Source: Bdellovibrio svalbardensis
GTDB taxonomy: Bacteria > Bdellovibrionota > Bdellovibrionia > Bdellovibrionales > Bdellovibrionaceae
DNA: 64,000 bases
Direction of reading: 5' to 3'
Assembly (NCBI RefSeq): GCF_029531655.1
Contig: NZ_JANRMI010000005.1
Span: 1 to 64,000 of the forward strand
In this document: positions 21,403 to 26,093 of the stretch, in pieces
Position numbering within the stretch: the first letter of the stretch is position 1
Layout of the letters: every line of letters begins with the position of its first letter
Notes under the pieces: model-generated
Database searches by the model: none
Seen by the model: the letters and a program-made list of their open reading frames with translations, nothing else
What the model was told of the DNA's origin: nothing
Made by a program: the position numbers and the translations under genes

Positions 21403-22104
21403 TTACTTCTTAGGTCGCTGGCTGTTTTGTTGGGTATTTTGCTGTCCGCGGTTTTGTTGCTGACCTTGATTTTGCGGATTGCGCTGCTGCTGAGGCTTCC
21501 CCTGTTGAGGAGGTCTATTGCCTTGCTGCTGTTGACCTTTAGCCTGAGGTTGTTGAGGTTTCCCCTGCCCTTGCTGTTGAGGGCGTTGCTGCTGCTTGTT
21601 TTGCTGCTGAGGTTTATTCTGCTGCTGGGGGCGATTTTGCTGTTGAGGCTTTTGCTCTCTTGGTGGACGTGCCTCTTTGGTTTCACCAGGTTCCTGAGCT
21701 GAAGGCTCTTTGACTTCTTCTTTCTCATTCAAAAGCATCATGTCGTTCACAGCTTTTGATTCGACCTGCTTGCTAGAGCGGAAGCCTCTGATTTTTTTGG
21801 TTTGATTTTCCTGGCGCTCCACTTGTTCGGTCAGATCTACTGTCACATCACCGAAGCAATGCACTTGGCAACTCAAACGTCGACCGTCGATGAAATAGCT
21901 CGTACCAATCAGGCTCAATTCAGCTTTATTCGGAGGAAGAACATTGTTGTCTCCCTCTTTAATGACAACGCGGCATTCGGCGCACGAAGGCACACCTTTG
22001 CAAATCGAGCGAATCTCAAGATGATTTTCCGTAGCAATCTGCAAAAGACTCTTCTCAGAAGTGCCTTCAACTTCGATATTTTGCGGAAGAAATTTAATTT
22101 TCAT
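21403..22104 (-). CDS. [2Fe-2S] ferredoxin with Gln-rich low-complexity tail
   Basis: 233 residues. Residues 1-95 are a 2Fe-2S ferredoxin domain with cysteines C-x5-C-x2-C (ICKGVPSCAEC, 35/41/44) and the fourth at LSCQVHC (79 or 83), the adrenodoxin-like spacing. Residues 95-145 are a charged linker. Residues about 145-233 consist almost only of Gln, Pro, Asn, Gly, Lys and Arg (units such as PQQQNKPQQQ), a prion-like composition. The DNA there is a degenerate CTGCTG/TTGTTG-rich repeat (21403-21660). Start at 22104: AGGA lies 8 bp before the ATG. A long Q-rich tail on an electron-transfer protein is unusual; it could drive self-assembly or RNA/protein binding. Lies downstream of tyrS. Confidence 0.85.
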   Translation of the reverse strand: MKIKFLPQNIEVEGTSEKSLLQIATENHLEIRSICKGVPSCAECRVVIKEGDNNVLPPNKAELSLIGTSYFIDGRRLSCQVHCFGDVTVDLTEQVERQENQTKKIRGFRSSKQVESKAVNDMMLLNEKEEVKEPSAQEPGETKEARPPREQKPQQQNRPQQQNKPQQQNKQQQRPQQQGQGKPQQPQAKGQQQQGNRPPQQGKPQQQRNPQNQGQQQNRGQQNTQQNSQRPKK

Positions 22105-22147
22105 ACTCAAGATCCTTTATCTTTCAGCGACTAACGCTTCGAGCCTC

Positions 22148-22178: not shown

Positions 22179-23414
22179 CTACTTTACGACGATTTTTGCG
22201 AATTTTGTTTTGCTGCCTTTGATGACTTTGTCAGCAAGGGCGGCTTCGGCAAATTTCGCTTTTGCGTCTGCGACTTTGGCTCCGTCAATTTGCACGGCGC
22301 CGCCTTGGACCATACGGGATGCTTCACTATTTGAAGCAGCAAATCCCAATTTGACCAAGAGTTGTGCGATCCCCAAGCCTTCGGCTGGGATATCGGCTTT
22401 GTTCAATTCAAATACCGGAATATTATCAGGCACACCCTTGTCGACGAAGATGCGGTTGAATTCATCTTCAGCGGCTTGTGCGGCTTCTGCATTATGAAAA
22501 CGTTTGATCAGGAATTTCGCCAAGTTGACTTTGACTTCACGAGGATGCTTTTTACCCCCAGCGACGTCTGTCTTAAGCTGTGCCAGCTCTGGCGCCGTGA
22601 TGTCAGTCAAAAGCTCATACCAACGATACATGAGTTCGTCAGAGATTCTCATGGTTTTACCGAACATATCTTTCGGTGTATCCACGACTGAAATATAGTT
22701 ATCCAAAGACTTCGACATCTTGTTAACGCCGTCGATACCCTCAAGAATTGGCATCGTCAAAACGCATTGAGGCTCTTGCCCGTAAGCCACTTGCATATCG
22801 CGACCAACAAGCAAATTAAACTTCTGATCCGTTCCACCCAACTCAACATCGGCTTTTAAAGCCACAGAGTCATAACCTTGAGTCAGAGGATACAAGAATT
22901 CATGAATCCCGATGGGTGAACCTGATTTATAGCGATTCGTAAAGTCATCACGCTCCAACATACGAGCCACGGTATACTTCGCCGTCATGGTGATGAAATC
23001 CTGGGGAGTCAATTTATTGATCCAAGAAGAGTTGTAAACGATCTCAGTTTTTTCCGGATCTAAAATCTTGAAGATCTGTTTCGCATAGGTCTTCCCGTTC
23101 TCTTCAATCTCTGCACGAGACAAAATCGGACGAGTTGAGCTTTTACCAGTGGGATCACCAATCGAAGCTGTGAAGTCACCGATCAAGAACAAAACCTTAT
23201 GTCCCAAATCCTGGAAGGTTTTTAATTTGTTCAACACCACTGTGTGACCAATATGAATATCCGGACGAGTTGGGTCCGCCCCTAATTTAATAATCAAAGG
23301 AGTATTCGTCTCAGCAGAGCGCTTGAGCTTTTTCAACATCTCTTGATCGTTGATAAACTCAGCCACACCAAACTTAATACGCTCTAACTGTTCTTTAGGA
23401 TCCAAAAAAGCCAT
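22179..23414 (-). CDS. tyrS: Tyrosyl-tRNA synthetase
   Basis: 411 residues, usual length for the TyrRS subgroup with short C-terminal S4 domain. Class I signature [17 protein letters not shown] (HIGH), KMSKS loop in [15 protein letters not shown], tyrosine-binding region [29 protein letters not shown], and an S4-like tail [29 protein letters not shown] that binds tRNA. Charges tRNA-Tyr with tyrosine. ATG follows AGGTAAGT. It is downstream of the RNase Y-like gene by 78 bp on the same strand. Confidence 0.96.
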
Positions 23415-23492: not shown

Positions 23493-25058
23493 CTAGCGGG
23501 CGTGTTCCACAGACCGTGTTTCACGAACCACAGTAACCTTAACCGCACCCGCTTGTGGTACTTCACGCTCAATCTTACGAGCGATATCGCGAGACAACAT
23601 CACAGCCTGGTCATCCGTCACTTTGCTGGACTCTACCAACACGCGAACATCTTTCCCCGCCTGCAACGCCAAAGTCTTAAGAACTCCGTCGAAGCTGTTG
23701 CCAATGCTTTCCAAATCTTCCAAACGGTGAATGAATGAATCCATTTGCGGACGACGTGCACCCGGGCGTGCCGTCGACAAAGTGAAGGCAGCATGGACAA
23801 TCCAAGCCAACAATGAATGAGGCTTTTCCTCTTCGTCATGAGCACGGATCGCGTGGCACACGTCTTCAGATTCATTGTATTTTTTCGCTGTCTCAGCGCC
23901 AACCAATGCATAACTTCCTTCAGAAGTATGATCGATAGCTTTCCCGATATTATGAAGAAGACCGGCTCTGCGTGCTTGTTTTACACTCACACCCAACTCA
24001 CCTGCCAGCAAGCCAGCGATTGTGGCCACTTCCAATGACTGGTTCAAGGCATTTTGGCCTTGGTATGAACGGTATTTCAAACCGCCCAGAATTTTAACAA
24101 GCTCTGGATGGATATTTGCAATACCCAATTCCATGACATGGCGTTCGCCTTCTTCCTTCATGGACTTCATCAATTCATTACGTTGTTTTTCAACGACTTC
24201 TTCGATACGCGCTGGATGCACGCGACCGTCTTCCATCAATTTCTCGATGGTTCTGCGCGCCAACTCACGACGAACTGGATCGAAGCCAGAGATCACCACC
24301 GCTTCCGGAGTATCATCGACGATCAAATCCACACCGCAATGGGCTTCCAATGTTCTGATATTACGTCCTTCACGACCGATGATCTTACCCTTCATCTCGT
24401 CGTTCGGAAGCGCCAACACACTGACTGTTCTTTCTGAAGTGTACTCAGAAGCGAAGCGAGACAATGCCACTGCCAAGATGCGTTTTGCTTTGGCTTCAGA
24501 TTCCTTTTGGGCAGCTTCTTCAATTTGTGTGATGCGTTTTGAAGCCTCTTGTTTCGCTTCATCTTCAATCGCGCTCAAAAGTTGACGTTTGGCTTCGTCC
24601 TGGCTCATCGCCGCGACAGATTCCAATTTATTTTTCAGCTCAACGATATGAGCTTCGCCTTTTTTCTCAAGATCTTTGATACGGTTTTCAGAGATCGCGA
24701 TTTTTTCTTCACGGTCCTTCAAAGTGCTCAAGTAACGTTCGTTCTCTTCCATTTTTTGCTTGAACTGAGCGTCGATTTCCTTCAAACGGCGATCCAACTG
24801 AGCTTCTTTATTTTTCAAAGTTGAATTTTGCTTGTGAATATCCGCTTCCACATTCTTGCGGGCGCGAGTTTCAAAATCCTTGGATTTTGTCTCAGCGTCC
24901 TTCTTCAATTTTGCAGCTTCAGAATTGGCTCTGTTGATGATGCGCTCTGCTTCGATACGTGCAGACTTCTTTTTGTTGTTATCTTGAATACGTTTGATAA
25001 CGAACACGATAACGGCGCCGAGGATTAAACCCAAGATGGCGGCAATGACTAACTCCAT
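23493..25058 (-). CDS. rny: RNase Y-like protein with HD metal ligands replaced
   Basis: 521 residues with full RNase Y architecture: N-terminal TM helix (1-20), long coiled coil (25-200), KH domain (IIGREGRNIRTLEAHCGVDL, about 220-285) and an HD-domain region (about 330-430) ending with the conserved RPGARR. However, each position that normally carries a metal or catalytic residue is altered: LQHS-type His reads LNQS (about 338), HD reads HN in LLHNIGKA (about 367), GSH reads GSY, AHHGD reads AHDEE, and the last Asp of AD-x-x-S reads F. I checked these codons on the DNA. Active RNase Y is a membrane-bound endonuclease starting mRNA decay; this copy is predicted to bind RNA and assemble but not cut. 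ATG follows TAGGAGTTAAA. Confidence 0.92.
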   Translation of the reverse strand: MELVIAAILGLILGAVIVFVIKRIQDNNKKKSARIEAERIINRANSEAAKLKKDAETKSKDFETRARKNVEADIHKQNSTLKNKEAQLDRRLKEIDAQFKQKMEENERYLSTLKDREEKIAISENRIKDLEKKGEAHIVELKNKLESVAAMSQDEAKRQLLSAIEDEAKQEASKRITQIEEAAQKESEAKAKRILAVALSRFASEYTSERTVSVLALPNDEMKGKIIGREGRNIRTLEAHCGVDLIVDDTPEAVVISGFDPVRRELARRTIEKLMEDGRVHPARIEEVVEKQRNELMKSMKEEGERHVMELGIANIHPELVKILGGLKYRSYQGQNALNQSLEVATIAGLLAGELGVSVKQARRAGLLHNIGKAIDHTSEGSYALVGAETAKKYNESEDVCHAIRAHDEEEKPHSLLAWIVHAAFTLSTARPGARRPQMDSFIHRLEDLESIGNSFDGVLKTLALQAGKDVRVLVESSKVTDDQAVMLSRDIARKIEREVPQAGAVKVTVVRETRSVEHAR

Positions 25059-25134: not shown

Positions 25135-25701
25135 CTACTTGCGACGGCAGTCGATGAGTCCCTGATCTGTTATGAGAAAATCCATTCTCACATCATGCTC
25201 TTCTACTGGCAGAACCTGCTCTGATATTTGAAACTCAAAACAGACTCCGACCTTCAATCCTGAAAAGTGTTGCAGGGCCTTATCATAGTACCCTTTACCC
25301 TTACCAAGACGATGGCCGTCTTTATTAAACGCAACTCCGGGAATCAGCAGCCCCTGAATGTGATGATGATCCACCACCGGGGAATTTGGGTCGGGCTCAA
25401 GAATCCCGAAAGACCCTTGAGAGAAATGAATGGCCCGACAAAACTCAAGGTGACTATCGTTTCCTTGGTCTTTGACCCGCGGAAACAACCAACTGATGTG
25501 CGAGATCTGAAAGACCTCGTCGACATTGGCTTCTTGAGTTAGAGCGCGATAAGCGCCCCATTCTCCGCTTTGCGTGGACATAAATTCCCGTAAATACGAA
25601 GACAGCTGCTTTTGGTTTTGAACAAGGCCTTGCGCGAACTCTTGGGCGCAAAGAGATTTAAAGTAGGAACGACATTCCTTTTTAGAGCTCCAAACAGACA
25701 T
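25135..25701 (-). CDS. 5-formyltetrahydrofolate cyclo-ligase
   Basis: 188 residues. Converts 5-formyl-THF to 5,10-methenyl-THF using ATP. Family motifs: LLIPGVAFNKDGHRLGKGKGYYDKAL (folate/ATP binding, near 120-145), KVGVCFEFQISEQVLPVEEHDVRMDFLITD. The N-terminus SKKECRSYFKSLCAQE fits the family start. I choose ATG at 25701, preceded by TTGGAG, over the GTG at 25707. Follows zapA closely, the widespread zapA-(6S)-fau order but with no room for a 6S RNA between. Two small inverted repeats lie between it and the RNase Y gene. Confidence 0.93.
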   Translation of the reverse strand: MSVWSSKKECRSYFKSLCAQEFAQGLVQNQKQLSSYLREFMSTQSGEWGAYRALTQEANVDEVFQISHISWLFPRVKDQGNDSHLEFCRAIHFSQGSFGILEPDPNSPVVDHHHIQGLLIPGVAFNKDGHRLGKGKGYYDKALQHFSGLKVGVCFEFQISEQVLPVEEHDVRMDFLITDQGLIDCRRK

Positions 25702-25728
25702 GGACACTCCAAGAGTTATAAGTCAGCC

Positions 25729-26037
25729 TTAGTTATTCAAAACCTTGCCGCTCTTGGAATTTTCTAGTTCTTGAGAAAGAGACAAAGCCTTCTCCTCGAG
25801 TTTTTCAAGCTCGCGAGCTGCTTTTCTTTTCAATAGGATAAGTTCTTCAGCAATGTTCATCGCTGTTAGGACAGCGGCATTTTGGAAGGAACCATTTTTA
25901 GTAACGCCCATAGCTTGATTCATTTTATTGTTAACGAAGTCGACCATTTCTTGAACGGTTGCATCGTCATGAGAGGTTTTCAATTTATACGGAACACCGG
26001 CAATGAGGAAATTGTAGTTCTTTTTCTCTGTCGTCAC
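25729..26037 (-). CDS. zapA: Cell division protein ZapA
   Basis: 102 residues. ZapA promotes FtsZ filament bundling at the division site. It has the N-terminal ZapA domain (YNFLIAGVPYKLKTSHDDATVQEMVDFVNNKMNQ) and a C-terminal coiled coil (NIAEELILLKRKAARELEKLEEKALSLSQELE). I choose GTG at 26037 because GGAG lies 6 bp before it; a TTG at 26049 is the other in-frame option. Probably co-transcribed with the cyclo-ligase 27 bp downstream. Confidence 0.88.
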   Translation of the reverse strand: MTTEKKNYNFLIAGVPYKLKTSHDDATVQEMVDFVNNKMNQAMGVTKNGSFQNAAVLTAMNIAEELILLKRKAARELEKLEEKALSLSQELENSKSGKVLNN

Positions 26038-26093
26038 CGTGCACTCCAAACCAAGCTGTTGATACTGTTTAAATCCTTTAAAACTCTAGAAAA

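Follow-up and report, generated by a model that had tools for sequence, protein, structure and literature searches.

Complementary losses in two RNase Y paralogues of Bdellovibrio and related families suggest an enzyme divided between two genes

Introduction

RNase Y initiates mRNA decay in many bacteria, and to our knowledge little has been established about how the work is divided between its RNA-binding and cutting domains. In B. subtilis, S. aureus and H. pylori, the enzyme is encoded by a single gene (rny) with functional KH and HD domains, and its parts follow the same order as in the protein described here: anchor, coil, KH domain, two-helix linker, HD domain and C-terminal region. The B. 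subtilis protein is a dimer held by its parallel coil and its C-terminal region, the latter being a proposed second dimer contact, and the nearest solved HD protein to the model of this enzyme is the HD-domain hydrolase 2PQ7 (PMC9775385). In H. pylori, mutation of a His in the HD motif of RNase Y has an effect like that of a knock-out (PMC11821409).

Paralogous ribonucleases of unequal activity are known from RNases J1 and J2 of Gram-positive bacteria, which are reported to form a heteromer (PMC4419217). The RNase Y pair described here would resemble J1 and J2 as two paralogous ribonucleases of unequal activity acting as a heteromer, but the fold is unrelated, and J2 is a weaker enzyme rather than one half of a reciprocal loss of RNA binding and catalysis. 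A search outside the subscription literature found no publication on RNase Y of Bdellovibrio or on a divided RNase Y, and the main text of a Tn-seq study (PMC6561027) says nothing about ribonucleases.

The window analysed here is a stretch of 64,000 nucleotides from Bdellovibrio svalbardensis (positions 1 to 64,000 of contig NZ_JANRMI010000005.1). It contains one of two co-inherited RNase Y paralogues, both under purifying selection, whose losses at functional sites are complementary and conserved. In contrast to the single-gene enzymes, the KH and HD functions appear to be split over two genes.

Results and discussion

A full-length RNase Y homologue with a degenerate HD metal site

The gene at 23493-25058 on the minus strand translates into an uninterrupted frame of 521 amino acids, a full-length RNase Y homologue (RNase Y-A, hereafter A) that scores 595 bits against the NCBIfam model RNase_Y (TIGR03319), above the cut-off of 454, and contains the Pfam domains RNase_Y_N, KH_1 and HD. 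A named near relative, B. bacteriovorus strain kdesi, shows 89% identity. The gene and its parts are as follows.

23493..25058, minus strand: RNase Y-A, 521 aa, a homologue of RNase Y in which the KH domain is intact and the HD site degenerate (NCBIfam RNase_Y, Pfam)
24444..25058, minus strand: N-terminal membrane anchor and long coiled coil of A, residues 1-205 (Pfam RNase_Y_N, coil lengths, model)
24225..24443, minus strand: KH RNA-binding domain of A, residues 206-278 (KH_1, 34.9 bits)
24366..24377, minus strand: GxxG loop of A, GREG, residues 228-231 (alignment; unchanged in all A proteins and destroyed in paralogue B)
23745..24074, minus strand: HD domain of A, residues 329-438, with the fold kept and the metal site degenerate (Pfam, model, structure match)
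23496..23744, minus strand: C-terminal region of A, residues 439-521 (model)

The predicted structure (mean pLDDT 81) retains the KH and HD folds and has N-terminal helices at residues 2-149 and 153-206. Among solved HD structures, 2PQ7 also fits the HD part of this model best (121 columns, rmsd 2.8), with the difference that its metal site is intact and that of A is degenerate; a sequence search of the PDB with the A protein returned weak KH matches only and no solved catalytic part of an RNase Y. The KH domain is the slowest-evolving domain of A and its GxxG loop is intact, reading KGKIIGREGRNIR. The metal site of the HD domain carries the following replacements, all taken from the alignment.

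24039..24041, minus strand: first ligand His replaced by Gln340 (LNQS for LxHS)
23949..23954, minus strand: HD pair, with His369 retained and Asp replaced by Asn370 (LLHNIGK for LLHDIGK)
23910..23912, minus strand: His of the GSH motif replaced by Tyr383 (EGSY for EGSH)
23835..23840, minus strand: AHH motif, with His407 retained and the second His replaced by Asp408 (AHDEE for AHHxE)
23784..23786, minus strand: late ligand Asp replaced by Phe425 (AAFTLS for AADALS); absent in 72 of 72 A proteins

Five of the seven HD metal ligands are thus replaced in this gene, and among the core four (H...HD...D) His369 is present and H1, D2 and D3 are absent. Since the HD motifs of the window protein align without gaps to those of 168 homologues, no ligand has merely shifted, and a location of the ligands elsewhere in the chain was rejected. 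Across the genus (13 Bdellovibrio species tabulated), the common set of replacements is Q340, N370, Y383, D408 and F/Y425. Because the same set occurs genus-wide, the frame is full-length in 72 A proteins and dN/dS in the HD domain is 0.044, the replacements are not the product of chance, and both neutral decay and an error of sequencing confined to one genome were rejected as having a negligible probability. An earlier note on this DNA had read these residues as Gln, HN, GSY, AHDEE and Phe, and translation and alignment agree with it on each of them; its wording that every position, or all ligands, had been lost was overstated, as His369 and His407 are retained.

A second RNase Y homologue with the opposite loss

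The same note had suggested looking through the genome for a second, intact rny. The whole-genome search did find a second RNase Y homologue (B; C2:686188-687735, near 687 kb; L002:529-2112, minus strand), which is intact in its HD domain but not in its KH domain. Its HD motifs are complete (QNQYFHC, LHDIGK, GGHAVIG, AHHFDE and AADAISGARPGARR), and its KH loop reads KLFCDPAGNNIK in place of KIIGREGRNIR, so that the two proteins are damaged at opposite sites: A in the HD metal site and B in the KH loop. Pfam KH_1 is found in A but not in B of the same genome. Both proteins carry the membrane anchor and coil, with RNase_Y_N scores of 98.7 bits for A and 48 bits for B against a cut-off of 32. With 406 bits for TIGR03319, B falls below the cut-off of 454, and automatic annotation may therefore not name it RNase Y. 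As a consequence, a "ribonuclease Y" annotation in Bdellovibrio likely names the non-cutting protein, and the likely cutter scores under the family cut-off.

The reciprocal pattern was counted in the window protein and its 168 homologues (169 proteins, including 27 single-copy proteins, 72 A and 66 B). Single-copy relatives retain all seven ligands and both glycines of the loop in 27 of 27 cases. All 72 A proteins retain both loop glycines, and none has all seven ligands, the late Asp being lost in every one; six ligands remain in 28 of them, two in 27 (as in the window gene) and one in two. In B, all seven ligands are present in 66 of 66 proteins and both loop glycines in only four, with one or both missing in the other 62. 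These are two co-inherited paralogues with complementary functional sites, as a split RNase Y would have.

When the HD columns are left out of the tree, the A proteins require at least 9 changes at H1, at least 10 at D2, at least 12 at the GSH motif and at least 9 at the second His of AHH. The late Asp was lost first, and erosion of the other ligands of A followed repeatedly, in independent events. In some A proteins of the window's family (f1) and of a related family (f7), the late Asp is the sole ligand missing; the A proteins of f7 differ from intact RNase Y mainly in having Asn for Asp and might retain some weak activity. Such proteins, together with the retained His369 and His407, are what can be said for A still cutting RNA through its remaining His and further side chains, with a single metal or without any. 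With five of seven ligands gone in the window gene, ligands lost repeatedly across the clade and an intact HD domain available in B, we regard continued cutting by A as very improbable.

Selection on the two copies

Among 53 genomes carrying both A and B, mean protein divergence in A is 0.443 for the HD domain and 0.264 for the KH domain, and in B it is 0.270 and 0.585; single-copy relatives give 0.224 and 0.275. The ratio of HD to KH divergence is therefore inverted between the two copies (1.68 in A and 0.46 in B, with 0.81 in the single-copy proteins), and the value of A exceeds that of B in all 1377 genome pairs; the pairs have a common history and so are not independent observations. For the window's genus, dN/dS is 0.017 for the KH domain of A, 0.044 for the HD domain of A, 0.008 for the HD domain of B and 0.046 for the KH domain of B. 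As these values lie far below 1 in both damaged domains, neither decays freely, and each seems to retain a structural job. Purifying selection in all domains, a KH loop that does not vary among the 72 A proteins and the preserved predicted fold speak for the earlier proposal that the scaffold of A has been retained by selection for a non-cutting role.

Distribution of the pair

The class was surveyed in 144 genomes. Two copies are the usual state in families f1, f7 and f9, and a single copy is present in f2-f6, f10 and f11; f8 has one copy with an apparent frameshift that yields two overlapping frames with intact motifs. Of the 66 genomes of f1, A scores above the cut-off in 65, and B, or a piece of B at a contig end, is found in about 62. 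The A/B pair thus recurs, co-inherited, across three predator-related families. In G035, a 99%-complete metagenome assembly (locus L183), A is present and no B was found, nor was the OsmC gene that adjoins B in G002; the absence of B may be an assembly gap or a real loss. The A protein of G035 has lost the late Asp and retains the other six ligands. Four genera placed in f9, g39 (L038), g38 (L040), g56 (L044) and g54 (L049), have a single intact RNase Y and cluster apart from other f9, so that either f9 is mixed or the split was never present there.

Two RNase Y copies also occur in f22, a further family of the phylum, in G168 and G161 (loci L189/L190 and L192/L193), which are two of the eight genomes of that class. 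In copy 1, Asn stands in place of the late Asp, other HD positions have also been lost and the KH loop is undamaged, and copy 2 has an intact HD domain with the GxxG loop still present. The two copies may come from a duplication of their own, since a single clade comprising them (X+Y) was not rejected (p 0.48). Perhaps f22 represents an earlier stage of the same division.

A probable two-gene RNase Y

We consider it probable that an RNase Y was duplicated and then divided, that the window gene encodes one of its halves, and that A binds RNA and B cuts it, the two acting together, probably as a heteromer. RNase Y would have duplicated in an ancestor of f1, f7 and f9, the families that comprise Bdellovibrio and related bacteria. 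A, still at the original locus, would have kept the anchor, coil and KH domain and lost the HD metal site, beginning with the late Asp missing from every sampled A, and the copy elsewhere in the genome (B) would have kept the complete HD metal site and lost the GxxG loop. With both proteins anchored in the membrane and having coils of nearly equal length, A would grip single-stranded RNA and B would make the metal-dependent cut within a mixed dimer or larger cluster. Judged by their motifs, A is presumably unable to cut RNA and B presumably cuts it, and the opposite damage suggests that they work together as one enzyme. The broader reading, that RNase Y in the Bdellovibrio-like families is an obligate two-gene enzyme with capture and cutting on separate paralogues and f22 at an earlier stage, is one that we favour slightly.

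That A and B associate physically is likely, although the coils give a mixed picture. Between the end of the TM segment and the KH domain lie 184 residues in most A proteins (57 of 72), and 183 or 184 in 40 of the 66 B proteins. The coils of f1 carry a net positive charge in every A and a net negative charge in every B; in f7, B always lies below A and the two are mostly of opposite sign; and f9 is mixed. A register-based (g-e') charge score, which is a rough test, gave 2.47 for A:A, 0.25 for A:B and -1.25 for B:B, so that A:B was not favoured over the mean of the two homodimers and B:B was worst.

The charge test is one of several observations that would fit A as a pseudo-nuclease that acts apart from B, tethering RNA at the membrane or serving as a degradosome scaffold, with B a separate nuclease that has its own substrates. 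The anchor, coil and KH domain of A are under strong constraint, the RNase E/G of this genome could be its client, and residues conserved near the HD site of B (QNQYFHC, GGHAVIG and AHHYD) are absent from single-copy relatives; B may have changed substrate. This arrangement is possible, at perhaps a modest chance, but it leaves unexplained both the complementarity of the losses and the joint inheritance of the pair across three families.

Pseudoenzymes often regulate active relatives, and A could likewise be an inhibitory or allosteric regulator of B or of RNase E/G, occupying RNA or dimer positions. Consistent with such a role, the coils of A homodimers equal those of single-copy proteins in the g-e' test and B homodimers score poorly. 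The invariant GREG loop, however, points to RNA binding as the function retained in A, and the loss of the loop in B suggests dependence rather than inhibition, which makes regulation by A improbable. The earlier note's suggestion of a regulator of another nuclease was right in direction, but the partner is very probably the sister RNase Y with the opposite damage, and the window gene probably encodes one part of a two-gene enzyme and not a pseudoenzyme acting alone.

As RNA binding and cutting are here separated naturally, across many genera, the pair offers a ready genetic dissection in which each subunit can be removed or mutated singly. The RNase Y pair is not the sole candidate for initiating mRNA decay in this organism, since the genome (G000) carries RNase E/G at C1:280037. 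No RNase J was found above the cut-off in the same genome; RNase E/G and two RNase Y paralogues in the absence of RNase J form an unusual set.

Genomic locus and origin of the two copies

The following genes flank A.

22179..23414, minus strand: tyrS, downstream neighbour of A (conserved there and next to most single-copy rny genes of the class)
25135..25707, minus strand: 5-formyltetrahydrofolate cyclo-ligase-like gene, upstream of A (a conserved neighbour, shared with single-copy rny loci)
25729..26049, minus strand: zapA-like gene, conserved upstream neighbour (locus comparison)

A has its cyclo-ligase, tyrS, ferredoxin and zapA-like neighbours in common with the majority of single-copy rny loci in the class and thus occupies the ancestral locus, with B located elsewhere. 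The A proteins form one clade (SH-aLRT 97) nested among single-copy proteins, and the B proteins form one clade (SH-aLRT 100) on a long branch placed outside the single-copy proteins of the class. An arrangement of A and B as sister clades was unsupported and marginally rejected (p-AU 0.046), a result that may reflect long-branch attraction, or B may be older or acquired rather than a local duplicate; the question of its origin leaves the functional reading unchanged. Finally, the 2Fe-2S ferredoxin-like protein downstream of tyrS (21403-22110 of the window, minus strand), a conserved neighbour, has a long low-complexity tail rich in Gln and Pro.
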